DNA from: Brachycybe producta
Lineage: Eukaryota; Arthropoda; Diplopoda; Playtdesmida; Andrognathidae
NCBI GenBank assembly: GCA_036925085.1
Contig: JAUPFP010000025.1
Location: 3,515,733 to 3,579,732, forward strand
DNA: 64,000 bases
Direction: 5' to 3'
The notes under the pieces were generated by a model. It was not told where the DNA came from. It searched no databases and saw nothing but the letters and a program-made list of their open reading frames with translations. Position numbers and translations under genes: made by a program. Below are positions 41,621-64,000 of the stretch, in pieces (the first letter of the stretch is position 1; each line of letters begins with the position of its first letter).

Positions 41621-42011
41621 ATAATTTACACATGGACTGGAACGATGTTGTAACTGACAATTTAATAATTTTAAAATACAGACGGTTACAAGTTGTAAGT
41701 TGTAACCGTCTATTTTAAAATTGTCAATTTGGGTTTCGGGCCCAGGACCTATAAACACTGTAAATACTAGTATTACTATGTATTACGATTATAATCTTAT
41801 CGTCGGTAATTACCGAGAAAAAGATCAAAGAAATTATTCAACAAAATCACAAATAATAAAATTAAATAGTGACCGGGCTCAGCAGGCTGTATGGGCCTCG
41901 GGAATTTGTCCCGAGAGGGGTCTCTCGTCGGCCCTGCCCTAGACATAATCTTATATGAATTCAATAATCTAATATTCTATTTCTTCTCTTATCTTCTTAC
42001 AGAAGAAAAAA

Positions 42012-42954
42012 ATGGACGAAACTTACAACAAAATGTCGAAAGGCAAAGAAAACAGTCAAAGAAACTCTGGCACTGAACAAGAATCAAGAAAACAAGAACT
42101 TCAAGGAGAACAAACAGAGTCAGCAAAAACCCCTCAATGTCCAGCTCTTTCTCAAATATGCTGTTTGGATTCTGAACTCGAGTTCTCCGAAATAGTTGTA
42201 AAAATCAGTAACGAATACCTTTCATTTATCAAAAAACCTTACTCGAAATTTTGCGAATTTTTCGATCAGATTTTTGACAAAACCGATTACCATTACTTGT
42301 TAATTTTGCATCTGGTAGCGTCCAGTTCAGACTATTCTACAGCTGGACGACAAACAAACAGCATCACATCATTCTTAGTTCAAAGTTTTAGTGACTATTT
42401 GTCACGACTTGTGACGAAACCACTCGAACCTTCGACTGAAATGAAAACGGCAGCACTGGTCTTAGCATTCCATCAGAGGCAAGAGACTGTGACAAAGGTA
42501 ATCTGTGACATCTTTCAACTGGACAAGAATGAAAAGCTTTATAAAAAATTCATCAAACGCGAAATTAAAGCGAAACATTACGACGTAGCGAGCCGTGCAG
42601 TAGTACAATTCAATGTCCATTCGCAATACGCTCTGTCGGACATCCTGTTGCCACTCCTCCTTCAAGACGAATTTGACGAAATGTGTTTTTACGTGTCCAA
42701 CAATTTGGACCTGCAAATAAAACTTGTTAGTTACCTAGATGAATTCTGTGTTCGTAACAAAAAACCAACATCTTTGATCACTCAACTGATAGTAACAGAT
42801 GAACAAATGCAACGTTTAAAGTGTAACGTTTTGAGTGAAACTGTGAGACAGTTAGCAAAACGATTTAATATACCCGAAGCACACTGGCAGAATGCAAAGC
42901 ATCAGGAAGTTATCGGAAGTGAAGATTTTGACGAGGTTGCCACGGAAACATCCA
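42012..42954 (+). CDS. Module gene A, exon with module A1 (EXD3/Mut-7 N-terminal-like)
   Basis: It starts at an ATG 9 nt after an acceptor-like TTCTTACAG and ends at the donor TCCA|GTGAGTAT (phase 1), 314 codons. Residues 1-42 are a Lys/Glu/Gln-rich charged head. Residues 43-300 are the helical module with LLILHLVAS (96-104), HYDVASRA (189-196), DILLPLLLQDEFDEMCFY (210-227) and the RFNIPEAHWQNAK stretch (284-296). These motifs and their order resemble the N-terminal domain of EXD3/Mut-7/Nibbler exonucleases (the PLLLQDK and CPNA-type positions in that family). There is no nuclease domain. Compared with A2, the C-terminal helices after HWQNAK are missing, so this module is shortened. Confidence 0.7.
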
Positions 42955-43053
42955 GTGAGTATCCCAAAAAAAGTGCATTCAATTATCTCCTCTTTTGTGA
43001 ATTTAGTCAACTAATATTAATATTCTGTTTACTCAATGTCACGTGACATTAAG

Positions 43054-44349
43054 GTAAAGAAAAATTGCAACGAACATCCAAGAAGGTACCGAAAGGCAAA
43101 GAAACCAGACTACGAAACCCAGAAACCGGACAAGAATCAAGAAAACAAATACTTGAAGGCGAAAAAAACAGTCAAATAAAGGCTGGAACTGAAGAAGAAT
43201 CAAGAAAAAAAGAACTTGAAGGCAAACAAGCAAAGTCTACAAAGAACCCTCAATGTCCAGTCCTCCCTCAAGCATGCTGGTCGGATCGTGAACTCAAGTT
43301 TCCCAAATCAGTCGAAACGATTCCAAAGAAATGGATTTCAAAAATTGAAAATTGTTTAAAACGTAACAAACCGTACATCAGATTTTGCAAAATTCTCGAA
43401 AAGATTCTTGACAATTGTGATTCCCATTACTTATTAATTTTGCATCTGGTGGCTTCCTGTTCAGACTATTATACAGCTGGACGACAAACAGAAAGCATAA
43501 CATCAAGCTTAGTTCTAAATTTTTGCGATTATTTGTCACGACTTGAAACAAAACCGCTCGAACCTTTGGCCGAAATGCGAGCGGCAGCACTTATCTTAGC
43601 ATTCCACCAGAAACAAGAGAACGTGGCCATAGTACTCTGCGACATGTTTCAACTAGACAAGGATGAAAAGCTTTACACGGAATTTATTAAACGCGAAATA
43701 AATGTGCAACATTACGACGTTGCGAGCCGTGCCATAGTACGATTCGAACTCCAATCGCAATACGCTATGTCGGACATACTGTTGCCACTACTCCTACGAG
43801 ACGAATTTGACGAAATGTGTTTTTACTTGTCCAACGATTTGAATCGACAAATAGATTTTGTTCGTTACCTCGATGAATTCTGTAATCCTGACATAAAACC
43901 GACTTCTTTCATCCGTAAGCTGATGGTAACGGATCGTCAAATGCAACGTTTAGACTGTAGCGTTTTGAGTAAAACCGTGGGGCAATTAGCTGAACGATTT
44001 AATATACCAGAAAAACACTGGCCGAATGCAAAGCGTCGGCAAGCTGCTGGAAAACTATACTATCTTCTAATGAAAAAATACGTGTATAAAGCCTTTGTAG
44101 GTAAGGATTTTGACAAAATTGTCAATGACCACATCAAAGATAATCCAGAATTACAGCTAATGCTTGTTAAATCTCTGGTTAAATACAACGATATTGATGC
44201 AGCTGTTCTGAATGCAGTCAAATTCAATGTGCCAGTAGAACAAGTTCCCAACAGCATCAGAACAAAGTTGAAAATTGAAATTGAAAAACAACCAGCCGAA
44301 TTCAAACCGACAGCCGTCAAAAATTCAACTTCTATCGAAGATGAAAGAG
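43054..44349 (+). CDS. Module gene A, exon with module A2 (EXD3/Mut-7 N-terminal-like)
   Basis: The acceptor ATTAAG|GTAAAG starts the exon in phase 1, in frame with the previous exon, so the non-ATG opening is explained by splicing. After a long charged linker (RKQILEGEKNSQ region) comes a full-length module: CPVLPQACW, LLILHLVASCSDYYTAGRQT, HYDVASRA, DILLPLLLRDEFDEMCFY, NIPEKHWPNAK, and then the extended C-terminal part KLYYLLMKKYVYKAFVGKDF, DAAVLNAVKFNVPVEQVP. The last segment matches the corresponding region of EXD3 best. The likely donor is AGAG|GTGAAG at 44,349 (phase 1), joining 45,862 in frame. If unspliced, the frame runs to a stop at 44,435. Confidence 0.68.
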
Positions 44350-45369
44350 GTGAAGTTCTTAACAAGCAAGGACGTGTATGTAGTGCAGTCAAAATACACG
44401 AGATAAAAACTATAATTTCGGGAAGTTGCAAATAACTTTCAACAGTGAAATTATTGCCTATATTATAGTTTTTGTCCTGAGTATTTCAGCGTGCGTGATT
44501 CTTCCCTTAGGCATAGTTCACATGCATGCAGAAAAATAAATCTGAATGAAATTTCAGCAGTATTTCTGCATTCATTTGAATTCCAGGGCGTAGCTGGGGA
44601 CCCGCAGCCACGCGACTGCAAAGGGGGGGGGCGCAGGAGGTTTGGATGGCGCATTTTGGGGGGTGCAAAGGGCGCGCGCAATGTTTTAAGCAGCAGGGGG
44701 GCGGCGGGGAAGGGGCGCAACCAAGTCATAGGTACACCAGTGTTGCATTCAAAGTCTCTCACAGGTTAGGCCGCCTTTATGCACGCATTTCATGCCCCGC
44801 GTTGTCTAGGTTTGCTTTTATGCACGCGTTATGTCTCATGCGACACACGATAGCAGATTCCATGTGTGAAAATCGTATCAGTGCTGTCAATCGCCTAATG
44901 ATTCTTTCAATGTCTTCGACTGAAATTCCCACGCAACTGGACATTAATCCGACAGAGAGGTTGACAGCACTAATGCAACGGCAGAACAAACGGCGCGTTT
45001 GCGTAAAAGGACCCATAAGAAACCGTGTAACTTAGAAAATTCGCGCAAACTTTTTGCCGTCGACGTTTTGTAGAACACGATTTTTCAGAACGCGACGGCA
45101 ACTTGAACGGACGGCAGTGCGCAAAGTCATCCATTTGTTATCGTCGCGTTATAGAATGTACATTTTGCCATCGTGTGTCATGCGACAAAAATGCGTTCAC
45201 AATGCATACTCATGGTGCAATATCTCATTCAGTGAGATAAACAGAATAGAAATATTCAAATTAGAGAGATATTCCTTTTTCAGAGAAATTTTTTTTTGTT
45301 CGGTTTGCGTGATCTATTCTTATATGTTACTCCTGTCTGACAGCCTAAACAGAGTTCAAGATAAATATG

Positions 45370-45800
45370 TAGGGATGGCCGGACATTCGAATCCTCGAAT
45401 ATTGAAAAATATTCGAGATTCGAAAACTCGAATCTTCGTGCTTTTTTTTTCGTCTTTCGAATTTTTCTAATCCTAACCTAAAAAAACTGTTAAAAACTTT
45501 CGTAAAATTAGATTTAACTTCATTGACGTCCAAACGAAGCGTTCACTAACAAAAAAAAACCGGAGATTGTTGCAATTTCGGTGTTGTACCCGGATCACCA
45601 ATATCATCACCTTGCAACGACCCTGAGTGCCACAATGTTTTCTTATTAATAATTTAATATTTAATATTATTTTATTTATTTTTATCTTCTTAATGAATAG
45701 TAGAGGATTTTTATATGAAGGATTCGAGAGATTCAGGAGATTCGAGAACCTTTTAGGATTCGCATTCGAGAAAATTTTGGATTCGTTCGTTCCACCTCTA
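45370..45800. mobile_element. hAT-like MITE in the last intron of gene A
   Basis: The ends TAGGGATGGCCGGACATTCG and the inverted CGAACGTTCCACCTCTA type are flanked by TAAATATG/ATAATATG, close to an 8-bp duplication. The body is full of ATTCGA motifs. A relative starts at 48,651 (TAGAGATGGGACATTCGAAT). Confidence 0.6.
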
Positions 45801-45861
45801 ATAATATGTTTACACTTTAAAACCAGCTTATCCTTAGACGAGTATTTTTTTCTAATTGCAG

Positions 45862-46067
45862 GTATAAAAAAATTAAACGGAAATAATGTTGAAAGAAAAG
45901 AAAATGTGGCCAGCAACATAAGGAAAATTACCTCTTGTTACGAATGCGGCAAAATCAAATACAATAAACGAATACAGAGAAAGAGGTGTGATTGCTTCAC
46001 AAACCAACGCCTACTAAAAAACGCATTCCAAGATCGTAACTTTGTTTCAGACGGAAATGTTCAATAA
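45862..46067 (+). CDS. Module gene A, terminal exon with zinc-ribbon-like tail
   Basis: The acceptor TTTCTAATTGCAG precedes it, and its phase (1) fits the donor of the preceding exon. It encodes about 68 residues: a Lys/Asn-rich stretch, then a CxxCGK...CxC segment (CYECGK and RKRCDCF) and QDRNF, ending in TAA. A homologous segment (CPYCGK, KKCDCF, QDRHF) is fused to the last module of gene B at about 56,690-56,800, which is strong evidence that both are coding. The CxxCGK motif recalls the zinc ribbon at the extreme C-terminus of Mut7-C domains, but the surrounding nuclease part is absent. Confidence 0.65.
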
Positions 46068-46110
46068 TTGAAGTAATTGTTTGTAAAGTGCGACTATTAA
46101 GTTTGATTTA

Positions 46111-46116
46111 AATAAA
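46111..46116 (+). terminator. Polyadenylation signal, gene A
   Basis: AATAAA lies 44 nt after the stop codon of the terminal exon. A second AATAAA-type site follows near 46,162. Confidence 0.55.
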
Positions 46117-46215
46117 ACCATCTTTTCTTTGCGTAAAATGTGTTGCTATAACTGAGCTTTAAATAAATGTTACTAATATGACTTATTTGAAAATATGTAC
46201 ATGTACTTTTTAACT

Positions 46216-46805
46216 AGTGTTGGGGAGTATTTTAAATACATGTAATTTAAAATACTTCATTTGTATTTAGTATTTATATTTGAAATACATCCATTAAATA
46301 ATGTATTTTTATTTTCAAAATACTTTTTATTTATAGTATTTTAGTATTTTAATTACTACAAAACACTACAAAACACTGCAAAACTTTGACAAAGTTAACT
46401 TGGCATGCCTTCGTTACATTGAAGAAAAACGAATGTTAACGTGACATCCAAGTTATTGCACCAGTTTCCAAGCATCAAGGCTGCCTTCATGAAGTTGAAT
46501 TCAACGTAAGTTGCATTCCTCCTGTTGAAAGGTTGTTCTCAAATACAGCTTCGACAGCAATTCCAAGAAGGAATAGATTAAGTGACAAATGCTTTCAACA
46601 GTTATTACTGCTCAAGACATATAATTTATGATGAATAAGATGATATTTTAGTATTTTAAATACTTTTTTTGAAAGTATTTTCTATTTTGTATTTTAAATA
46701 AACGTAAAATTTCGTATTTTGTATTTTAATTTAAATACATTTTCATGAAACTAATTTGTATTTTAAAAGTATTTTCCAGAACACTGTTTTTAAACAGTGT
46801 TCTGG
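46216..46805 (+). mobile_element. hAT-type element with transposase remnant
   Basis: AGTGTTGGGGAGTATTTTAA at the left and the inverted TTTTAAAAGTATTTTCCAGAACACT at the right resemble hAT ends. The element contains a transposase fragment (46,509-46,632). A perfect 30-bp hairpin (CCAGAACACTG...CAGTGTTCTGG) closes the right side. Confidence 0.6.
46509..46632 (+). pseudogene. hAT transposase C-terminal dimerisation remnant
   Basis: About 40 codons encode PPVERLFS and, further on, RRNRLSDKCFQQLLLLK, the signature of the hAT C-terminal dimerisation region (P-x-ERxFS ... R..L...F..LLxLK). Everything upstream (zinc finger, RNase-H-like catalytic domain) is missing. Confidence 0.75.
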
Positions 46806-46911
46806 ATGTAGATTTATATACAAAGTCTATAAACAATTTCATTAAAATACACCTAACTTTAATTTGTTGGATTAAGATTTAATAAACATTCTTTTGAAAA
46901 GTTTCTTTACG

Positions 46912-47480
46912 TTAAGGTGGCTCTATAGATATTTATTTTGGTTTTGTATTCCCCCTCCCCTCCCCCCCCCGGTAGCGAATTGAAAATTTGAAGCCCAGTC
47001 CATGAGATTTTATACTGGGCCCAGCCCACGAAGCGCACCAGACCAATGGGCCTTTAACATAAAAATGCCAAGCCCAGCCCAGCCCATGGGCTTTATGTAG
47101 GTCTCTATTCTATAGAATGTCTCTTCTCGGCATCCTCGGTTCTGAGTAAATTTATATTTTTCAAGCGAACGTTTATCAGGAGAAACATTACAAAAAAAAT
47201 TCAGTATTTTAGAAACTAGACTAGTTGGTGATAATGTTAATAATTTTTTTCATGATGAGATTTTTGAAAGTAAATTTTTATGACAGTTTGCAAAAGGCTA
47301 AAATAATTTCCTGAAATGCCAATGGAAAAACCAAAAATGGGCCATTTTCAAAATGAAATCAATCATCGATCGGGTCATTGTCTATAAAAAAAAAAGTTTA
47401 ATTTAAAAGTTATCAACATGAAAATACCATTAAGTGATTGAGCTACCATTCTAGTTTCTAAAACATATTCAAATTTCTCT
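46912..47480. repeat. TTAA-type MITE, left end, rearranged
   Basis: It begins TTAAGGTGGCTCTATAGATA as in the other copies. The internal TTTCATGATGAGATTTT and TTATGACAGTTTG blocks are present, but the right terminus cannot be recognised. A separate GCCCAGCCCA-rich insert lies at 46,985-47,100. Confidence 0.5.
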
Positions 47481-47672
47481 TCATTTTGCACCTGAAAGAC
47501 AATTAATGAGGATTCGAGATGCGTTTACATTTTAAATGACATAAACGCTTTAAATCAGTAGCTAAGAGGAAAAATGTGTTAAATTTGTGCATGTAAAACA
47601 CTTAAAAAATGAGTGGTCGCAAAAATATTCAGTAGCTAATGTCGCACATATAAACAAGATAAGTTACGTCAG

Positions 47673-48081
47673 CAGTAGCGTAGCTGGGGGGGGGGGGGCG
47701 ATCCGCCCTTTTTTGGGGGCGGCACCAACGAAAAGAAAAGTATTTTTCCTGTCGGGATAGTAGAAGGATCTTTATAAAACTCTTTTATGATTGCCCAAGA
47801 AGAAATTATAAAAATTTTGTCGTTCGTTGTGCTCGCGGAATGTATTCTGCAATCCAGCAATATGTTTTACGTCCGAAATACTGGTTTATTTCTTAATTTT
47901 ATAATTTATAAAAAATTATATAAACCATTTCAGTCACTGGATATCGATAATATCGTTTGGCCCCTCCCAGACGAGAATCCTGGTTGTGTCACTGATGTGT
48001 GTATAGTGTTGTGTTTTCGTGAGGGAGGGGCGGCAAACTTAAGGACTGCCCAGGGCAGCACAAACTCTAGCTACGCCACTA
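47673..48081. mobile_element. MITE with CAGTRGCGTAGCT ends
   Basis: CAGTAGCGTAGCTGG at the left pairs with the inverted CTAGCTACGCCACTA at the right. The host sequence ACGTCAG is repeated on both sides, and the paralogous locus near 37,880 is uninterrupted. Confidence 0.7.
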
Positions 48082-48099
48082 TAACGTCAGTCTAATCAT

Positions 48100-48308
48100 T
48101 TGTTTTTTTTACGTCATTCAGACCAGAGACTTGTTCCACAGCAATTGCAGTTTTGCTGTATACTAGGGAAATGCTATATGCAGTGGTTTCCCCTTGCCTT
48201 CTGCATCGCACAGGACAACACAAACATCCATGCCCTTGCCAGTATTCGAACCTGGGACCCCCCAACACTGCAATCGGAGATCTTCCCATTACACTACCAA
48301 GGCGTCGG
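48100..48308 (-). mobile_element. tRNA-derived SINE with 12-bp target duplication
   Basis: On the minus strand the head CCTTGGTAGTGTAATGGGAA (A box) and GGTTCGAATAC (B box) is followed by a short body and a poly-A tail (T8 on the plus strand at 48,103). It is flanked by CAGTCTAATCAT and CAGTCTAAACAT (11 of 12 identical). The paralogous site at 37,885 lacks it. Confidence 0.8.
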
Positions 48309-48650
48309 CAGTCTAAACATAGCCTCCTTTAATAATACGTCAATAAAGTTCATTAATAGAAAATAGTTTATATAATCTTTCGTGTTTGTATCCTCATCTA
48401 TAGATAAGGATAAAAACACAAACACGAAAGAGTAGGCGAAACAATTTATGATTATTGCGAATTTGTAAACATATTTTGTAGTCTGATCCAGTGATAAATA
48501 GGCTACATATGAATACGAAAGAGGTAAGAATATATATGACAAATGTGTTAAGTGTAACTATTCAAATCAATGTTGTGATAAAATTACTTTTCAAAAGATT
48601 TAATTAGAATTAGGCCTACTAACTACATTAGTGAAAAATTATAATTATAC

Positions 48651-49926
48651 TAGAGATGGGACATTCGAATCCCGGCGAATCTTGAAAAATATTCGAGATT
48701 CAAATAGTCGAATCTTCACGCTTTTTTCGTCTTTCGAATCTTTCGAATCTTAAGAGCCTAGATCCACGTCCATCTTGTTGTTTTGAGCAGACGACGACGA
48801 GACAAATGAGTGTTCTTATATGGTGTTACTAAAACAGCAAAAAATCGCCTCACAATCGCTCAATTCAAATACAGTAAAGCGCAAAATGCAATAAAAAGTA
48901 TTGTTCTTCACGTGCTCGATTTATATAATTTTTGAAAAGGTCCTTCTATTTTTAAACAAGGTTCAAAGTCGTTCGTTTTTTTAACCCCATGTTAAATCCC
49001 ATTGGCCCCAAAACCGTCCCACAAACATTTGAAAAACTCTCGTTAAAACTGATTTAGAACAATAACAAAATAATTAGCACATACATTCATGTATTGGCTT
49101 CACGATGTTTCGTTTTTATAAATTTTGAAAAGGTCCTTCTATTTTTTAATAACGTTTAAAATCGTACGTTTTTTAACTCCATGTTAAGTCCCATAGGAGC
49201 AAAACACCGTCCCACAAACATTAGAAGAACTCCCATTAAAATAATTTAGAACAACCAAAAAAAATTAGCAAGTACTTACACGTGTTTATTGCCTTCAGGA
49301 TTATTCCTTGTTCTAAATTTGAAAAGGGCTTTCTATTTTTAAATAACATTTAAAATCTTACGTTTTTTTAACTCCGTGTTAATTCCCATAGGAGCAAAAA
49401 AACCGTCACCCAAACATTTGAAGAACTCCCGTTAAAAACAACTCAGAACAATCACACAATATTTAGTACGTGTATTAATCTACTGGCTTCACAATGTTTT
49501 CTTTTTCGAAGGTTAGCACGCGAAATTATTTTTCAATTAATTATTATGTGACTTCGAACCGGGAGAAAAAACGTTAAAAAACCGTTTTTCAATCAACAAC
49601 GATCGCAGCGCCTACATTCGGAGAAATTTTGAACTAAACGATGTATCTAGCCTCTTAAGCTAAAAAAAAAAACTGTTAAAAACTTTGGTAAAATTAGTTT
49701 TAACTCCATTGACGTCCAATGGAAGCGTTCACTTTAACAAAAAATGGCGATTGTTGAAATTTCGGTGGTACCCGAATCACTAATTATCACCTTGTGGAAA
49801 CCCTGAGTGCCACACTGTTTTTTTCTTAATATTAATAATTTAATATTTAATATTATTTCATTTATTTGTATCTTCTTAATGAATAATATAGGATTCTTAT
49901 AGGAAGGATTCGAGAGATTCGCGAAC
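48651..49926. mobile_element. hAT-like MITE carrying a nested TTAA element
   Basis: The left end is TAGAGATGGGACATTCGAAT. The right part resembles 45,470-45,780 (CTGTTAAAAACTTT, ACCCTGAGTGCCACA). A TTAA-bounded element (48,750-49,657) is inserted between them. Confidence 0.6.
48750..49657. mobile_element. TTAA-flanked element with three internal tandem repeats
   Basis: The ends are TTAAGAGCCTAGAT and ATCTAGCCTCTTAA. Inside, a roughly 185-bp unit (TTTGAAAAGGTCCTTCTATT ... TTCACGATG) repeats three times (48,930-49,495). The same family is at 2,972 and 59,725. Confidence 0.65.
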
Positions 49927-50394
49927 CTTTTACAAAAAAGTGTGTAGAAAAGGTACCGAACTGAAGCTGTACATAGAGGCTAAATAAGCAGTGCGGCTTC
50001 AAGATGCTTCTTCATAATCAAGTGATTGTTTATATGAAAATTATTTTCCATATAAACAATCACTTCGTTATATGAAGAAAACTCTTGTCCTAAACCAACT
50101 TCAAGTAAACTGTACATTGCATTTTACTTGGGTAGGGCTGACCACTTTTTACACGGATCGGATCGATTCATATTACTGGTAGTTTGTTCCTAGAGTTGGT
50201 AAGACAATGGAACTCTCTATTGCAGAGGATTTTATGAATTGAAAATAAACTTGTATTATGGGTATTTTAATTTTCTGACAATGCAGTATTTCAGCTGCAT
50301 TTTGCAAGCTGCAATCAGGACTTTTGCTTCTCTGCCACAGGCTTATTTTTGATTGCTTGCAGAGTAATTTTTTTCAAATTTAAACTCCAACAAA

Positions 50395-50760
50395 GATGAA
50401 AATACATCCTGATAACAGTGATAACACTTATCAAATATAATTGACAAAAACATGAAGAAAACAACAACTCTAGATAATGAATAGGGACTTTTCCCACCAT
50501 TCAACCAATCTATATAATATAGGCCTTGGTATTGTCATAACTATTCATAAGTATTGGTGCTGGAAGTAATTTACCAAAAAAGTAACAAATGACAGCATTT
50601 AAATTACTTTTTGAAGTAATTAGTAATTTACCATGTAATACCATATTACTTTTGAAACTTTGTAAATTCTAATTAATTACCTTTTCTAATGAAAATGTAA
50701 TTACGTACTTTTTATTTAATTTTCAAATTACATTCGTGTTCACAAACTACATTCCGATCT
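50395..50760. repeat. Duplicated upstream region of the module gene (copy 2)
   Basis: It is the counterpart of 41,030-41,360, including the ATAATGAATAGGGACTTTTC block and a TATATAATA motif at about 50,510 that is the likely TATA box of gene B. A TTAA-type MITE (50,765-51,254) now separates it from the first coding exon. Confidence 0.6.
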
Positions 50761-50764
50761 TGCG

Positions 50765-51254
50765 TTAAGGTGGCTTCATAGATATTTATTTTGCTTTTGT
50801 AATGTCATACTCCGTAGACGTTCTTATAAAATTTGGGCAAAAAAAAATTCAGATTGTTTTCAAAACTAGAATAGTAAAAGATTATGTTAAGTTGTTTTAA
50901 TGGCAAAATCTTACAAAATAAACATTTTATAGCAGTTTGAAAACGACCCGTTTTTTTTCTTTTCTTTTTTCTGTTGACATTTCATGAAAAAACTATTTTC
51001 GCCCTTTTCAAACTGTCATAAAAAATTTATTTTGAAAGATATCATCATGACTTTTTTTGAGCATTATCGCCAACTATTCTAGTTTTTAAAACATTTTCAA
51101 TTTTTTCGTAATGTTTCTTTCTAATAAAAGTTCGCATGAAAAATCTAAATGTTCTAAAAACCACGGACCATCCGATAGAACATAATAGCCAGTGCAGTGG
51201 GTCCCCATCCGAGGGGACAAAAACAAAATAAATATCTATAGAGCCATCTCTTAA
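50765..51254. mobile_element. TTAA-type MITE upstream of gene B
   Basis: It begins TTAAGGTGGCTTCATAGATA and ends ATCTATAGAGCCATCTCTTAA, with TTAA at both borders. It is the best-preserved copy of this family in the window and sits less than 100 bp from the start of the first module exon of gene B. Confidence 0.7.
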
Positions 51255-51343
51255 CTAAAAAAAAATTAGAAATTCTCTTTTGTGAATTCAATGATCTAAC
51301 ATCCTACATTATTTCTTCTCTCACTTTCGGTAAAGAAAAAAAA

Positions 51344-52388
51344 ATGGAAGAAACATCCAACACGACGTTGAAAGGCGAAGTAAACAGTTCAAGTACCGGT
51401 AACCAGGAAACTGAACAAGGATCAAGAAAACACGAATTTCAACACGAACAAACTGAGTCCGCAAAGATCCCTCATTGTCCAGTTCTCTCTCAATCGTGCT
51501 GGTTGAATCACGAACTCAAGTTTCCCAAATCAGTTCTTGCAATCACCAACGAATGGATATCAGTTATCGAAGACTGTTTCAAACGCCACGAACCTTACTG
51601 GAAATTTTGCGAAATTCTCAACCATACTATTGACAAGACTGATTCGATTTACTTGTTAATTTTGCATCTGGTGGCATCCAGTTCAGACTATTCTACAGCT
51701 GGACGAAAAAGAGAAAGTATCACATCTTTCTTAGTTCGTGGATTTCACGACTATTTGTCAAGACTTGCGACGAAACCTCTCGAACCTTCGGCCGAAATGA
51801 TATCGGCAGCACTAGTCTTAACTTTCCATCAGAAGCAAGAGATTGTGGTAACGATCCTCTGCGACATCTTTGAGCTGAACAAGTATGAAAAATTTTATAA
51901 AGAATTCATCGAAAGCGAAATTACAGCGAAACATTACGACGTTGCGAGCCGTGCAGTAGTACAATTTAACCTTCAATCGCAATACGCTCTCTTGGACATT
52001 TTGTTGCCATTACTCCTTCGAGACAAACTTGAAGAAATGTGTTTTTACTTGTTCAACGATCTGGACCGGCAAATAAAACTTGTTGGCTTCCTAGATAAAT
52101 TCTGTGTTCCTAACAACAAACTACTTTTTTTGATCAAACAACTGATGGTAACTGGTAAACAAATAAAACGTTTAGAGTGTAGCGTTTTGAGTAAAACCGT
52201 GAGACAATTGGCTGCACGATTTAATATACCTGAAGCATACTGGCCAAATGCAAAGCTTCGGCATCAAGTTATCGGAAACGAAGATTTTGACAAGGTTACC
52301 ACAGTACACATCCAAGATGGTGTAGACTTACAGTTAATGCTTGTTAGAAATATGGCAAAACACAACAAAGTTGATGATGCATCATCAA
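51344..52388 (+). CDS. Module gene B, exon with module B1 (EXD3/Mut-7 N-terminal-like)
   Basis: The ATG follows a TTCGGTAAAGAAAA stretch that matches the acceptor region of the later module exons except that the AG is CG, so this is probably the initiating exon. It ends TCA|A|GTGAGTAG with a phase-1 donor, 348 codons. The charged head is followed by CPVLSQSCW, LLILHLVASSSDYSTAGRKR, HYDVASRAVVQFNLQSQYA, DILLPLLLRDKLEEMCFY and NIPEAYWPNAK, then a short tail (IQDGVDLQLMLVRNMAKHNK). The C-terminal extension of A2/B3 is reduced. Family and function are as for A1. Confidence 0.7.
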
Positions 52389-52484
52389 GTGAGTAGCCCA
52401 AATAAAGTGTATTTAATTGTCTCTACTTTTGTGAATTCAGTGATCTAATATCTTGTTTCTTCCTCTGTCATGTGACATGTTAAG

Positions 52485-53804
52485 GTAAAGAAAAAAGTAA
52501 ACAAACATCCAAGAAGATGTCGAAACGCAAAAAAACCCGACTAAGAAAGCCAGGAACTAAACAAGAATCAAGAAAACAAGAACTTGAAGGCGAACAAAGA
52601 GTGTCTGCAAAGAACCCTCAATGTCCAGTCCTCCCTCAAGCATGTTGGTTGGATTTTAAACTCAAGTTTCACAAATCAGTCGTAACCATCCCGAAGCAAT
52701 GGATTTCAGAAATCGAAAACTGTCTGAAAAGTCACAAACTTTACTTCGAATTTCAAAAAATTCTCGAAAAGATTCTTCACAATTGTGATTCCCATTACTT
52801 TTTAATTTTGCATCTGGTGGCTTCCACTTCAGACTATTATACAGCTGGACGACAAACAGAAAGCTTAACATTAAGCTTAGTTCTAAATTTTTGCGCCTAT
52901 TTGTCACGACTTGTAACGAAACCGCTCGAACCTTCGGCCGAAATGCGAGCGGTTGCACTTATCATAGCCTTCCACCAGAAACAAGAGAAAGTGGCCATAT
53001 TACTATGCAGCATGTTTCAACTGAACAAGAGTGAAAAGCTTTATACGGAATTTATTATACACGAAATAAACGTGCAACATTATGAGGTTGCGAGCCGTGC
53101 CATAGTTCAATTCAACCTCCAATCGCAATATGCTATGTCGAACATACTGCTGCCACTACTCCTACGATACGAACTAGACGAAATGTGTTTTTACTTGTCC
53201 GACGATTTGAATCGACAAATAAAATTTGTTCGTTACCTCGATGAATTCTGTATTCCTGGCATAAAACCGACTTCTTTGATCCGTGAGCTGATGGTAACGG
53301 ATCGTCAAATGCAACGTTTAGACTGTAACGTTTTGAGTAAAACCGTGAAAAAATTAGCTACACGATTTAATATACCTGAAGAACACTGGCCAAATGCAAA
53401 GCGTCAGCAAGTCATCGTAAAACACGTCAAAGATGATGCATTACAAGTTCCGCTCTCAGTCAAAATAGTAGAAATTGATAAACAACGAAAAAAGTTCAAG
53501 CTAACAGCTTTCACAACAACGACATCAATTGGAAATAAAAGTGGCGATGTTCTTCCCAGCAAAGATATGTCGTGCAGCCGAAGTATTCAAGAAATAAACG
53601 ACTATAAAATATGGAATAATCTAAAAACTGTTATAACCAACGGCAATAACAATGAAATGACTTCTGGAAAACAACAATCCACAAAGTACGACTTTATTGG
53701 AACAGTCAATCCTGGAGGAGCTCCGTATGGCAATGCAATCGAAAAGGAATCGATACTTTTCGTAACAAACCAAACTCCTGCTAAGAGTTTGACAGGAACA
53801 GCAA
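52485..53804 (+). CDS. Module gene B, exon with module B2 (EXD3/Mut-7 N-terminal-like)
   Basis: The acceptor TGTTAAG|GTAAAG and the donor GCAA|GTGAGTAT are both phase 1, so the 1,320-nt exon can be added or skipped without frame change. The module is complete through NIPEEHWPNAK, but the region equivalent to KLYYLLMKKY in A2 is deleted (QQVIVKHVKDDALQ follows directly). It then has a low-complexity Thr/Ser/Asn-rich tail of about 120 residues. A2 is its closest relative in the first 300 residues. Confidence 0.7.
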
Positions 53805-53900
53805 GTGAGTATCCTTAAAACGTCCATTCAAATCTCTCTACTTTTGTGAATTTAGTGATCTAATATCCTGTTTCTTCCTCTTGTCATGTGACATTTTAAG

Positions 53901-55349
53901 GTAAAGAAAAAATGGAACGAACATCCGATACGATGTCGAAAAGCAAAGAAACCAGACTAAGAAACCTTGAAACTAAACAAGAATTTGAAGGCAAACAAAA
54001 AAAGTCCGCAAAGAACCCTGAATGTCCAGTTCTTTCTCAAATCTGCTGGTTAAATCGTAAATTCAAGTTCCCGAAATCAGTCGTTACGGTCACTAACGAA
54101 TGGATATCAGTTGTCGAAAACTCTTTCAAAAATCACGAACCTTACTGGAAATTTAGGGAAATTCTCAAAACGATATTTGCCAAAACTGATTTCCATTACT
54201 TGTTCATTTTGCATCTGGTGGCGTCCAGTTCAGACTATTCTACAGCTGGACAACAAACAAAAAGCATTACATTATTCTTAGTTTTAAGTTTTAGAGACTA
54301 TTTGTCACAACTTATGACAAAACCACTCGAACCTTCTATTGAAATGAAAGCATCAGCACTGGTCTTAGCTTTCCACCAGAAACACGAGATCGTGGCCATA
54401 GTACTCTGCGACATATTTCAACTGAACGAGGATAAAAAGCTTTATACGGAATTTATTAAACACAAAATAAATGTGCAACATTACGACGTTGCAAGCCGTG
54501 CCATAGTCCGATTCAACCTCCAATCGCAATACGCTCTGTCGGACATACTGTTGCCACTACTCTTACGAGACGAATTTGACGAAATGTGTTTTTACTTGTC
54601 CAACCATTTGAATCAGCAAATAGAACTTGTTCGTTTCCTAGATGAATTCTGCGTTCGTGAGAAAAAATCATTTTCTCAGATCAGTCAACTGATGGTAACT
54701 GGTGATCAAATGCAATGTTTAGAATGTAGCGTTTTGAGTAAAACCGTGAGAAAATTAGCTAAACGATTTAATATACCCGAAGAACACTGGCCGAATGCAA
54801 AGCGTCAGCAAGTTATCGGAAAACTATACTACATTCTACTGAAAAAATATGTGGATAAAACCTTTGTAGGTACAGCTTTTGACAACGTTGTCCATGAACA
54901 CATAAAAGATGATCTAGGATTACAGTTACTGTTTGTTAGATATCTGGTTAAATACAACGATATTGATGCAGCTGTTCTGAATGCCGTCAAATTCAATGTG
55001 CCAGTAGAACAAGTTCCCAACAGCATCAGAATAAGGCTAAAAGTTGAAATTGATAAACAACCTGCCGAATTCATACCTACAGCCGTCAAATGTTCGACTT
55101 CTAACGGCGATAAAAGAGGTGAATTTCTTCCAATGAAAGAAATGTGGTGCAATCGAAATGCTCAAGACGATAACGACAACATATGGAATAATAGCGTCAA
55201 CGCACCACCAAAAAGCCTTCAAAGAAACTTGAAAGTTGGAAATAAGCAAAAACTTTCTTCCAAAGATGTCTTAAAACCAAAAACAGCCAAAACCCGTGGC
55301 AATAGTACAAAAAAGATTTTTGGCAAAAAACCATCAACAACGATCAATG
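53901..55349 (+). CDS. Module gene B, exon with module B3 (EXD3/Mut-7 N-terminal-like)
   Basis: The acceptor TTTTAAG|GTAAAG is phase 1. This is the longest module, 483 codons to the predicted donor TCAATG|GTATTG (phase 1); unspliced, the frame stops at 55,381. It includes CPVLSQICW, LFILHLVASSSDYSTAGQQT, HYDVASRA, DILLPLLLRDEFDEMCFY, NIPEEHWPNAK and the full C-terminal part (KLYYILLKKYVDKTFVGTAF, DAAVLNAVKFNVPVEQVP), followed by a basic Lys-rich tail. A2 and B3 are the only modules that keep the whole region resembling the EXD3 N-terminal domain. Confidence 0.7.
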
Positions 55350-55425
55350 GTATTGTATACGTGCTTTATATGTGGCAATAGGTGAATATTTTAGAACTAA
55401 CACTGAGCTTAGTGCAGAAGGAACT

Positions 55426-55593
55426 TGTTTTCACTGGGGTGAAAATTTGAAATTTTTAAAAATTTCAACTGGTGAAAAATGGAAGACATGTGGCCCCCTC
55501 CCATTCACTATCATAGGCAAAGGCCACGTGTGTTCTACGTTTCACCAGTTGAAATTCTCAAAAAGTTCAAATTTTCACCGCAGTGGAAACAAA
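55426..55593. mobile_element. Small inverted-repeat element in the last intron of gene B
   Basis: TGTTTTCACTGGGGTGAAAA and AATTTTCACCGCAGTGGAAAC, with TTTCAACTGGTGAAA inside, form an imperfect hairpin. Similar GTTTCCACTTTGGCGAAAAT sequence occurs alone at 29,567. Confidence 0.5.
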
Positions 55594-56012
55594 GGCATAA
55601 GGACACTTTCTACAGAACATGATCATTTTTCTATTAAAACTACAATAGATAACCCTCTTGTCCGCAAGTTTCTAAACTTGAGAGGTTTTAAGCGGCGATC
55701 CCATAGACAATATTTTTAAATCAAGATACACTGCAATGTGTACCTTGAATTAATTGCAATTGCAAGACATCTTGCAAGACATAACGTGGTTTCTTGCACA
55801 AAATGCTGATCTTCGTTTGTTTTGGAAGAAACTGGCAACTGTTAAGTTTAGAAACTCGCAGAGTTACTGCATATTTCACATGCGCAATAGAAAACAACTT
55901 AATTTAACTGGCATGACCTAGTATTTATGCATTTCTGACATTTTCCGTATCCTCTTTTAACTGCTAATCCTTACAAGATCGTATTTTTTTCGATTTTCAT
56001 GTATTATTATAG

Positions 56013-57286
56013 TGCAACTATCCAGCTATTACCAAGTTCCAAGTTATTCAACAGTGGCTCAACAAGGGGCAAAGCACAAAATAAAGCAACTGGAAACACA
56101 ACGTCCCAAACAACTGCAGCCAAAGGAAGACATCAAACAACCAACTTGTTGGTTAGAACTTGAAATCGAAGTTCCACCTTCAATCGTTGCAATAACCTTA
56201 GAACATTTGAATGATTTTGAAGTGGCTGTCAAAAGTCACAAAGATTTTTCAATCTTCTGTGATATTCTCAACAGAGTACTTGACAAATCCATATCTCCAA
56301 ACTTGTCCATTTTGCATTTGTTAGCTTCGTGTACAGAATATTTCAACACTAAACGAAGCGCAAATGGCATTATGTCTTTCTTTGTACAAGGATTTCGACT
56401 TTACTTACGAGGGCGGAAAACTAAACTACCACCACCTTCAAACGCCATAAAAAATGCAGCGTTCATCGTAGGCTTTCGTTCAAATGATATGTGGCTTTTC
56501 ACAGAACTCCTGAATATTTTCAGCCTCTCGAGAAATCCAATGATCCACGTCCCTTTCATCAAGAAAAACATTGAAATGGTACAATTTGACATGACGTTCG
56601 AAGCAATCACACTATTAAAACTCCAAACGTATATCATGCGGGGTGAAATTTTGCCATTGTATGAAGACATAAGGAACATAACGTATTGTCCATATTGTGG
56701 AAAAATCCACAACAGTAAACCAAGTCAGCGAAAGAAATGCGATTGCTTTACGAAAGACCGCCTACAAAAGAACTCATTCCAAGATCGTCACTTTTTTCAC
56801 GAGAAACCAGTGGCGGATCCATGGTGGGGGCGCAGGGGATGTGGTCCCCCACAAAAAAATGTGAAAAAAAGAGAGAGGGAAAGGGATGAAGAGAGAGATA
56901 TAAAGAGAGAAAGTAGAGATGCGCTGTATGTCATAAAACAAACATTGAAGACTAAGAAAACTAAAGGTCGCCACACACATTCCGGTAAACCTGTTAAGAG
57001 TATGCCTGTGCAGGCACGCTTGTACGGTGGCCAAGAAGTGCAATCCCTACATACAAACACACGACAACACTCAATACTCCACAACAACTTCCAAACCTCT
57101 ACAACAACTTCCAAAACTACAACAACTTCCAAAACCACAACAACTTCTAAAACCACAACAACTTCCAAAACCACAACAACTTCTAAAACTACAACTTCCA
57201 AAACTACAACTTCCAAAACTACAACAACTTCCAAACTTTACAACATATTAAATATTATTTCATTTATATTTATTTATAATTATTGA
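56013..57286 (+). CDS. Module gene B, terminal exon: divergent module B4 plus zinc-ribbon-like tail
   Basis: The acceptor GTATTATTATAG is phase 1. The N-terminal 50 residues are Gln/Lys-rich. A divergent, shortened module follows (CWLELEIEVPPSIVAIT; LSILHLLASCTEYF; LLKLQTYIMRGEILPLYED) and then directly the CPYCGK...KKCDCF...QDRHF tail seen in the gene A terminal exon. After HEK the frame enters transposon-like sequence (AGTGGCGGATCCATGG, from about 56,810) and a Thr/Ser/Lys low-complexity run (57,095-57,240). The original stop has apparently been replaced, so the last 150 or so residues are probably recent and may not be functional. Confidence 0.62.
57095..57240. repeat. Microsatellite-like (CAACTTCCAAAACTA)n encoding Thr-Ser-Lys repeats
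   Basis: A unit of 12-18 bp (ACAACTTCCAAAACC) repeats about eight times and reads TTTSK in the gene B frame. Confidence 0.8.
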
Positions 57287-57304
57287 ATTCAGTATGCATG
57301 TGCA

Positions 57305-57440
57305 CACACTCGTTTAAACGACTTAGGCACTCGTTTGAACGACTTAGGCACTCGTTTGAACGACTTAGGCACTCGTTTGAACGACTTAGGCACTCGTTTG
57401 AACGACTTAGGCAATCGTTTGAACGACAGTCGATCGTTTG
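57305..57440. repeat. 21-bp minisatellite, six to seven copies
   Basis: CACTCGTTTGAACGACTTAGG is repeated head to tail just after the end of gene B. The copies are contiguous with no unique spacers, so it is not a CRISPR-like array. Confidence 0.85.
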
Positions 57441-58080
57441 AACCACTTAGTCGCGTGTTTAAATGACGGTTATGAGTGTGTATGCTCGTTTGAGTGCGCA
57501 TTTGCATAATCATATGTGAGTGCATACATGCACATGTGTATGTACATTTCTCCCCCCCCCCCCTAAAAAACACCAGCTTCATGGTTTTTGTGAGATTTTT
57601 TAAACTTTATAAGAAAAGCTACAGCATCTGTCAAATTGTTTGGGTATAGGTCTTTTTAAGACCATTTTAATTGTTTTTTCTTCTGTTAATGGGCTTTTTC
57701 GCATGTACATGCGAATGTCCACATGAGGTTTTAAGCTGCATTAAAAAATACTAAAATACATCTAGCTACATCATTACAAGTCAACATTTTCAAATCAGTT
57801 TACTAAGTAGTAACTTGTGATCAACAAAAGCTCACTTTAGTTCAACATATGAGTTTTTTAAAGGTAAATAGTATTTTTATTTATTGAATAATTGAGAATT
57901 AAGCATGAAACCATTATTACTAATAGTCCAAGAAACAAAATTGTGTAAATACCATTTTTAAAAAGTCACAATTTTGGTAATATTAAAGCCATATTTTGTT
58001 AAAACTTTACTATTTATTCTTTGCTATTAATTTTTGTCAATCGAGTATGATTAATTTGATGATGATACAGTAGTAAAATT
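57440..58080. other. Non-coding stretch
   Basis: AT-rich sequence with a short C9 tract (57,551) and no gene I can support. Confidence 0.45.
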
Positions 58081-58087
58081 TCCCAAC

Positions 58088-58713
58088 GGTGGCGCTGATC
58101 AAGCGCCAAATTGAATAAGCGCCAAATTGAATAAGCGCCAAATTGAACAAACGCCAAACTGAATAACTGCCAAACTGAATAAACGCCAAATGGAACAAAC
58201 GCCAAACTGAATAAAAGCCAAATGGAACAAACGCCAAACTGAATAAGCGCCAAATGGAACAAACGCCAAACTGAACAAGCGCCAAACTGAATAACCGCCA
58301 AACTGAATAACCGCCAAAATGTGATAAATACATTGTTAGGTTAGGTTAGGTTAGGTTAGGAATGGTTAGGTTAGGTTAGGATTGGTTAGGTTAGGTTAGG
58401 TTAGGATTGGTTAGGTTAGCATATTCTGTTTGTAAATCTGCACAGTCTGACGTCTATAAAAGCTCACAATATTTGGACCATCAGAATTTACAAAAAACCT
58501 GAATAACCGCCAAACTGAATAAACGCCAAATGGAACAAACGCCAAACTGAATAAGCGCCAAATGGAACAAACGCCAAACTGAATAAGCGCCAAATGGAAG
58601 AAACGCCAAACTGAATAAAAGCCAAAAATTTGGCGGTTATTCAGTTTAGCGTTTGTTCCATTTGGCGCTTATTCAGTTTGGCGTTTGTTCAATTTGGCGC
58701 TTATTCAGTCGCC
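58088..58713. mobile_element. Large inverted-repeat element with GCCAAACTGAATAA arm repeats and TTAGG core
   Basis: The left arm is an array of GCGCCAAACTGAATAA / ACGCCAAATGGAACA units. The right side repeats the same units and then, from 58,627, has them inverted (TTATTCAGTTTGGCG). The centre (58,335-58,420) consists of GGTTAGGTTAGG runs interrupted by AATGG and ATTGG. The long open frames on the minus strand (FGVCSIWRLF repeats) are by-products. A fragment of the right end recurs at 61,053-61,072. Confidence 0.75.
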
Positions 58714-59198
58714 CCAAATAATGTGCTATTTTCTTTTCTTTTCTTCAAGTTAATATAAAATTCATTTTTTCCAATACACATTATTTGGCGGGGAATTTTA
58801 AATACTGTATTCATCGTGGAATTAATTATACTGCTAATAACACATTTAGCAACAAATATAATTAACATGCTAATGGAAAATATTATTAACAATTCTAGAG
58901 ACATCTAACGATGTTAATACCAAATGTTTTAATACATATGAATAACAAGTATATAGGCTTGTATAGGCTGATTTTTAAGACGTTAAAAATCAGTGCCTAT
59001 AACACGTGTTTTCAGCAATGTTACCTCCGGTGTAACCGTTACATATTTCTTATTAACATTTTGCTACTAACAATGTTTTTGCTATTTCTCTGGTGTAAAG
59101 CCACCTATATATCTATGATTGGTTATTGCTTTTACTCAACAAGCTGTTTTCAATTTTTTTTTCCCCCAAAAGTGTCAACATGAGCTCCTACGATAAAC

Positions 59199-59351
59199 AT
59201 GGATTCTCATCGCAAGTGTTTGCACTGTCACACTGACATTTTATTTCCAACAGCCAATTTTTGTTTTTTTTGTGGCATGCAATGTACACCAATTAAATCT
59301 GAAAGTGATTATATTCATATACTATTGGATATGTTAAGTGTAGGCTTATAG
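59199..59351 (+). CDS. Possible 50-aa zinc-ribbon peptide or exon
   Basis: The frame encodes KCLHCHTDI and then FCFFCGMQC, a CxxC-x(14)-CxxC zinc-ribbon pattern, within 50 residues ending in TAG. A pyrimidine tract with CCCCCAAAAG just upstream could be an acceptor. A second short frame (59,509-59,616), also directly after an acceptor-like TATTATCAG, follows. Such N-terminal zinc ribbons occur in some transposon-encoded and regulatory proteins, but I recognise no specific family. It may be the start of a degraded TE gene. Confidence 0.3.
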   Translation: MDSHRKCLHCHTDILFPTANFCFFCGMQCTPIKSESDYIHILLDMLSVGL

Positions 59352-59508
59352 TAATGTTCTTAAGTAATGGAAGTTTGCTGCCTAACTTAGTATTAGCAAT
59401 ATTAAAAAAAAAACAGCAAAAATCCATAATGTTGGAACTACTATACCACACCACTGAATAAAAAGATTTTTTTCATTAGTTTTTACTTTAGTATTATCAG
59501 GTTGAGAA

Positions 59509-59616
59509 ATGGCTTTAGCGCAACTACAAACCAGTACCCCTACAACCTGTGATGATCTATGTAACAAGCGGAAGTCTACTTTATCCCCATCATTGGCCGA
59601 GTATTTGCAGTTTTAA
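59509..59616 (+). CDS. Possible short exon downstream of the zinc-ribbon frame
   Basis: Thirty-five codons from an ATG 8 nt after TATTATCAG end at TAA in an A10 run. The following sequence is Lys-rich in another frame, so a slip in the A tract may have interrupted a longer frame. No family is recognised. Confidence 0.2.
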   Translation: MALAQLQTSTPTTCDDLCNKRKSTLSPSLAEYLQF

Positions 59617-59724
59617 AAAAAAAACAGACAGGACGAAAAAATTAAGCACCACAAGGCAAAACTAAAGGAAACAACTAAAAAAGTGAAAGTAAAAACAATT
59701 TGTTTTCTAAAGTTTTGAAAACAG

Positions 59725-60330
59725 TTAAGAGCCTAGATCCCCGTCCATCTTGTTGTTTTCAGCAGATGACAACGAGGCAAATGAGTGTTCTTATATGGTG
59801 TTACTAAAACTGCAAGAAATCGCCTCACAATCACTCAATTAAAATACAGTAAAGTGCAAAATGCAATGAAAAGTATTGTTCTTCACGTGCTCGATTTATA
59901 TAATTTTTGAAAAGGTCCTTCTATTTTTAAACAAGGTTCAAAGTCGTTCGTTTTTTAACCCCATGTTAAATCTCATTGGCCCCAAAACCGTCACACAAAC
60001 ATTTGAACAACTCGTTAAAAACGATTTAGAACAATAACAAAATAATTAGCACATATATTCATGTACTGGCTTCACGATGTTTCCTTTTTATAAATTTTGA
60101 AAAGGTCCTTCTATTTTTTAATAACGTTTAAAATCGTACGTTTTTTAACTCCATGTTAAGTTCCATAGGACTAAAACACCGTCCAACAAAAGTTAAGAGG
60201 ATTAAAAATGATTTAGAGCAATCAGAAAAATTAGCACGTACTTACACGTGTTTATTGCCTTCAGGATTATTCCTTGTTCTAAATTTGAAAAGGGCTTTCT
60301 ATTTTTAAATAACATTTAATAACATTTTAT
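59725..60330. mobile_element. TTAA-type element with tandem repeats, right end lost
   Basis: It starts TTAAGAGCCTAGATCCCCGT and runs collinear with 48,750-49,350, including the internal repeats (TTTGAAAAGGTCCTTC). The right terminus is missing. Confidence 0.65.
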
Positions 60331-60482
60331 CCAAAACTTCGGATGACTGTTTTTGCCATTTGCAATATCAATTATTTGTGTCATACATTTTGCAATAAAC
60401 AAACAAAAAAAATGCCAATAAAAATTTAGTTTTTTTTATGTAACTGCAAGTATTTACAGTTGCCTCCCCATAAGATAAAGCA

Positions 60483-63429: not shown

Positions 63430-64000
63430 GTGTTGTGCACACATTTATATTTTCACAAAGTATTGATCACATTAAGTTGTAGGGAATTTCCCCCATTACT
63501 GTTATCATTCATAAGTTAAGATCAAAGATCAAAATTGTGTAAAGAATATTAAATTTCACTGATAAAATAAGCTGAAAATACAGTATGCGACAGAAACAAT
63601 GAACCCAGCCAATTGCAATCGGGCGACACAGTCTGTTTGTTGAATATTTAACATCTCAAACAACAATTAAAGAAAGTTACACATTTGACATTTCAGCATG
63701 GAAAGGAGTCAAGAATTTTTAAAGTTCGAAAAAAAAAAGGTCAAAAACCAAGATTTGATTTTTTAACTTGGCTTTTTTTTAAACGAAAAATATTTAAATG
63801 CTCGAAAACCTCTAAAATGCCTCAGGAGCACTCATCTGGCTCCAGAAGTCCCAAAAACCTTGGAAAAACAGGGTTGTTAAAAACTGAAAACCGTACGTTT
63901 ATCACGAAAAATCGGATAACCGAGAATGAAATCTCAATGTAAAACAATATTTTTAATTATATTTTTCATTTTTCACAAACCAGGAGACAAATACAAGATG
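63430..64000. other. Non-coding stretch to window end
   Basis: I see no repeat or gene I can name. An open frame at 63,685-63,942 is Lys/Ser-rich and has no recognisable family or splice context. Confidence 0.4.

Follow-up and report, generated by a model that had tools for sequence, protein, structure and literature searches.

The stretch of Brachycybe producta DNA analyzed here (64,000 nucleotides of contig C25, hereafter the window) carries on its + strand, between positions 41973 and 57286, six long open frames of one family, named A1, A2, B1, B2, B3 and C (Table 1). Read from stop to stop, the frames span 41973-43046, 43053-44435, 51242-52396, 52484-53818, 53900-55381 and 55961-57286, respectively. 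A1, A2, B1 and B2 are 62-71% identical to B3, and the resemblance among the modules is beyond chance. Both sequence and fold (PDB 7jw3) place them in the N-terminal HEAT-like domain (NTD) of the Mut-7/Nibbler/EXD3 family, in line with the resemblance proposed in the initial annotation; structure models covered B3 and A1 only. All six module exons listed in that annotation are present as open frames, but they are not equally complete. Only A2 and B3 are complete. With B3 as the reference, its last four helices are wholly or partly missing from A1, B1 and B2, which retain the part aligning to PDB 7jw3, and C is a partial module in frame with a Cys-rich tail. A profile of 16 modules, the six of the window among them, detected no further NTD module in the window.

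Table 1. Coordinates of the NTD modules, introns and related features (window positions unless a contig is given)
Feature	Position	Strand	Description
G1	C25:3357769 to ~3363120		One NTD, EXO, MUT7-C; parental type; NTD and EXO by profile and Pfam
X577	C25:3493308-3497170		NTD and degenerate EXO; upstream of the window
A1	42012..42954	+	Predicted gene A, first coding exon; last helices of the NTD module absent
Intron A1-A2	42955..43053	+	99 bp, phase 1; GTGAGT...TTAAG
A2	43054..44373	+	Exon 2 of gene A; NTD module complete; donor site predicted; PDB 7jw3 E 5.4e-16
Haplotype difference	44504..60388	.	15.9 kb without counterpart on C128, the second haplotype contig; includes the tail exon of A and the whole of B with C
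A tail	45862..46067	+	Predicted last exon of gene A; Cys-rich tail (CxxCGK, CxCF, RLxKNxFQDR) and stop
B1	51344..52388	+	Predicted gene B, exon 1; last helices of the NTD module absent in part
Intron B1-B2	52389..52484	+	96 bp, phase 1
B2	52485..53804	+	Exon 2 of gene B; NTD module without last helices
Intron B2-B3	53805..53900	+	96 bp, phase 1
B3	53901..55349	+	Exon 3 of gene B; NTD module complete; donor site predicted
C	56013..56803	+	Final exon of gene B (predicted); roughly the first 60% of an NTD, fused to the Cys-rich tail
D start	63920..64000	+	844-aa frame, two NTDs in one frame; runs beyond the window
F	C66:859436-863829		Two NTDs in one frame, then EXO with catalytic motifs
H	C66:881531-887327		Two NTDs in one frame, then EXO with catalytic motifs

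The three module-module introns with clear sites are all in phase 1 and alike, with the donor A/GTGAGT and the acceptor AAG/GTAAAG (the slash marking the boundary) common to all of them. The A2-tail and B3-C junctions can also be read as phase 1 at predicted sites, and the phase-1 boundaries noted earlier were confirmed wherever the introns are clear. The regions 5' of A1 and B1 also show similarity to part of the intron sequence, indicating that the duplicated unit was probably an exon plus leader. The modules, initially regarded as a single array, are indeed in tandem, but they appear to read more simply as two genes, A (A1-A2-tail) and B (B1-B2-B3-C), each with its own ATG and predicted tail exon. 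The predicted protein of gene A has 822 amino acids; if the predicted donor of A2 is left aside, the A2 frame continues to a stop at 44433-44435. Directly after C, positions 56949-58670 hold simple and minisatellite-like repeats, which read as TTTTSK- and FGAYSVWRLF-like peptides.

The initial annotation had also described the array as nuclease-less, and our searches of the window agree with it. An exonuclease (EXO) profile was built from the domains of four genes of the surrounding cluster (G1, E, F and H, described below). It recovered their exons and, outside the profile, the exons of X577 (9.6e-19, 1.5e-13, 2e-5) and a broken copy. No EXO exon was found in the window, where the best profile match was 0.47 and tblastn with the G1 EXO gave nothing below E 5. 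An EXO domain is therefore not assigned to A or B within the window, from which splicing to a distant exon might be possible. Likewise, no MUT7-C was found in the window, and tblastn with a MUT7-C exon of G1 matched G1 alone in the three stretches searched. MUT7-C is not strictly required in this family, as drosophilid Nibbler is without it (PMC11347159). The Cys-rich tail, whose motifs follow each other as CxxCGK, CxCF and R[LV]xKNx[FY]QxR, is common to the exon after A2, C and the upstream gene X460, and the C128 copy of X460 brings its occurrences in the genome to four. Pfam gave no match to this tail, and its PDB matches are weak (E 0.44 and 1.6).

Of the 442 contigs of the genome (295 Mb), only C25, C66 and C128 gave NTD matches, and the array was found to be part of a bigger cluster that extends past both edges of the window. 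The cluster covers about 272 kb, of which 244 kb lie on C25 and 28 kb on C66. Its first member, G1, is a full-length gene of the parental type for which a genome search had been recommended; it has one NTD, an EXO domain with the DxE, D and Y..D motifs and a MUT7-C with the zinc-finger half, the catalytic motifs and the MUT7-C exons being read by eye. The order on C25 is G1, X577, X460, A, B, D and E, and the contig ends inside another NTD. In the EXO of X577, also read by eye, VAIQFTW corresponds to VGIDCEW of G1, the motif-II Asp is gone and His replaces the motif-III Tyr. No stop interrupts the X577 NTD frame of 577 aa on either haplotype contig. X460 comprises, all in one frame, an ATG, an NTD, the Cys-rich tail and a stop, and E consists of an NTD and an EXO domain with its motifs kept.

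The reverse complement of C66 starts in the same NTD frame in which C25 stops, with no overlap between them. In addition, the end of C128 matches the end of C25 over 285 bases (99.3%) and extends 15 bases beyond it with the first letters of C66. This frame continuity and the bridging C128 end indicate that C66 continues the cluster, its content in cluster order being H, a broken EXO at ~873 kb, and F. There is no intron between the two NTDs of F or of H. Duplication of the NTD and loss of the nuclease are separate events, since the cluster also contains the parental G1 and nuclease-bearing siblings, two of which have two NTDs.

A few other features were observed in the cluster interval. Between the two NTDs of H lies a short repeat (DKPRTDRRAQGTVE) in about twelve copies. 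A minisatellite of ~4 kb at C25:3419662-3423736 is open in all three frames of the - strand, and frames resembling reverse transcriptase and copia-like retroelements were recognized by eye at C25:3367227-3368228 and 3432387-3435730. A repeat of ~860 bp at positions 48747-49610 of the window looks recently mobile; compared with its C128 copy, four near-full-length copies in C25:3485733-3601947 are 93.2-99.5% identical and a partial one 91.4%.

The 12.3 kb of C128 examined (179801-192097) align to C25 in segments with 92.8-98.5% identity, a multi-copy repeat being set aside. As C128 is without the 15.9-kb stretch, the array has unequal copy numbers on two contigs of the same assembly, a difference that may be due to assembly error.

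The history of the modules was studied with a protein tree of 15 modules, C being left out as partial. A1, A2, B1, B2 and B3 form a clade with D2, which lies outside the window (100/99), and within it A2 pairs with B2 (100/99). F1 and H1 also pair (99/98), and F2, H2 and E group together (94/93), so that the two-NTD form is probably older than the split between F and H. The ratio of nonsynonymous to synonymous substitution rates (dN/dS) was 0.42-0.77 (Nei-Gojobori) over the 15 pairs among A1, A2, B1, B2, B3 and D2. No in-frame stop occurs in these six modules, whereas a neutral simulation along their terminal branches, into which only modules found open were entered, produced 26.9 stops on average and never fewer than 13 in 2000 runs. 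Among the alleles, the X577 pair shows eight nonsynonymous and no synonymous differences, and the X460 pair shows none of either kind.

Our best reading of the sequence is that the array may be part of a radiation, specific to this lineage, in which Nibbler NTDs became multivalent binders of small RNA and Argonaute without catalytic activity. Specifically, A and B could be such binders, arisen by tandem duplication of NTD exons with loss of EXO and MUT7-C, a tentative proposal to which we give a probability of roughly 0.45. The NTD exon of a Nibbler/MUT-7/EXD3 gene would have been tandemly duplicated and the exonuclease and MUT7-C exons lost. The predicted products would most likely contain two helical-repeat NTDs in A, and three plus a partial one in B, with the short Cys-rich tail last. 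As in Nibbler, the binding partners of each NTD would be small RNA and/or Argonaute/PIWI, and A and B may act as scaffolds or competitors, the NTD chain holding, shielding or competing for RNA 3' ends otherwise trimmed by the sibling nucleases. The Nibbler NTD has been reported to bind RNA or serve Argonaute-bound substrates (PMC11347159). Argonaute/PIWI partners probably exist, given the 17 Piwi-domain matches on four contigs of the genome. A wider proposal, which we regard as rather doubtful, is that the poly-NTD "decoys" or scaffolds A and B, together with X577 and F/H, would form a fast-evolving, copy-number-variable set governing the extent of small-RNA 3'-end trimming. This would be achieved through multivalent capture of Argonaute/PIWI-bound RNAs, the Cys-rich tail replacing the catalytic half.

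Several points weigh against A and B as multivalent binders. The splicing of A and B as modelled and the production of their proteins are inferred from the DNA sequence. In PMC11347159, the NTD and the C-terminal domain (CTD) are proposed to be two arms, neither of which is an efficient RNA binder singly; under that account, several loaded RNAs could be bound uncut by NTDs in a chain, or another NTD could stand in for the missing second arm. Furthermore, the net charge of the modules is mixed (A1 -9, A2 0, B1 -4, B2 +5, B3 +4, and -8 in the parent G1), which weakens a pure RNA-binding reading, and together with the helices missing from A1, B1 and B2 it implies that RNA binding by every module is not assured. 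Mixed charge would also fit a recruitment of the NTDs outside small RNA, for example as HEAT-like scaffolds that bind proteins in defence, with an arms race as the driving force, as would the quick protein evolution, the copy-number difference, the conversion-like mosaics and the failure to find a nuclease for A and B. Nevertheless, no positive sign of another partner was seen and the siblings E, F and H retain the NTD beside a motif-bearing EXO, and we consider such a recruitment improbable. In another reading, the module exons could be alternative N-terminal pieces of one large nuclease gene, where the use of different promoters or splice sites would select which exon is joined to the EXO exons behind E, given that phase 1 is common to the clear boundaries, that the NTD frames of E, F and H stop just ahead of an EXO exon and that the genes share one strand in head-to-tail order. 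This seems quite improbable in view of the ATG and predicted tail exon of both A and B, the in-frame stop of A, the completeness of X460 in a single frame and the absence of B and the A tail from one haplotype contig.

The remaining points against A and B as binders concern decay. B and the A tail are absent on C128, where A2 is out of frame near its C end and partly B3-like there, and C is partial, with a frame open to 57286 through repeat-like sequence. Of the 95 differences counted over six allele pairs, 68 are nonsynonymous, and neutrality was not rejected (p = 0.14), a result that was similar without A2 (33/47, p = 0.21). Definite relics also lie nearby, namely a G1-like NTD with four stops (C25:3368889-3369317) and the broken EXO of C66, and the stop simulation omits nearby stop-bearing relics. 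It is therefore conceivable, though in our view unlikely, that A and B are decaying duplicates of a fast birth-and-death cluster, open only through recent age and gene conversion and functionless now. However, the absence of stops where the neutral simulation gave about 27, the dN/dS values of all 15 pairs and the splice sites alike at all three module introns argue against decay.

The anatomy of the locus is firm with respect to homology, fold, cluster, the three phase-1 introns, open frames, the failure to find an EXO exon in the window and the difference between the two haplotype contigs, and the multi-NTD, nuclease-less A and B are real at the level of sequence and fold, while their function is putative. 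With a parental-type gene, two-NTD genes with EXO, a degenerate EXO and nuclease-less poly-NTD genes, the cluster represents a natural dissection of the role of the NTD apart from the nuclease. Given the copy-number difference between the haplotype contigs, effects on small-RNA 3' ends could be tested across carriers. Nibbler (Aedes/Drosophila), MUT-7 (C. elegans) and EXD3 (human) are DEDDy 3'-5' exoribonucleases, described as a nuclease with a single NTD. The modules of A and B share the Nibbler NTD, but A has two NTDs and B three plus a partial one, with a predicted Cys-rich tail and no EXO or MUT7-C found in the window. In the open-access literature searched (PMC11347159, PMC6211395 and PMC13269885 included), no multi-NTD or nuclease-less Nibbler forms are described, which supports the earlier suggestion that a poly-module derivative is undescribed. 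F and H share two tandem NTDs with A and B, but differ in having them in a single intronless frame and in their EXO with catalytic motifs. Finally, PMC11347159 describes ZK1098.3, a C. elegans MUT-7 paralogue with an NTD, EXO and a partial CTD. A and B are similarly paralogues short of part of the standard domains but, unlike ZK1098.3, they are without EXO and multiply the NTD.
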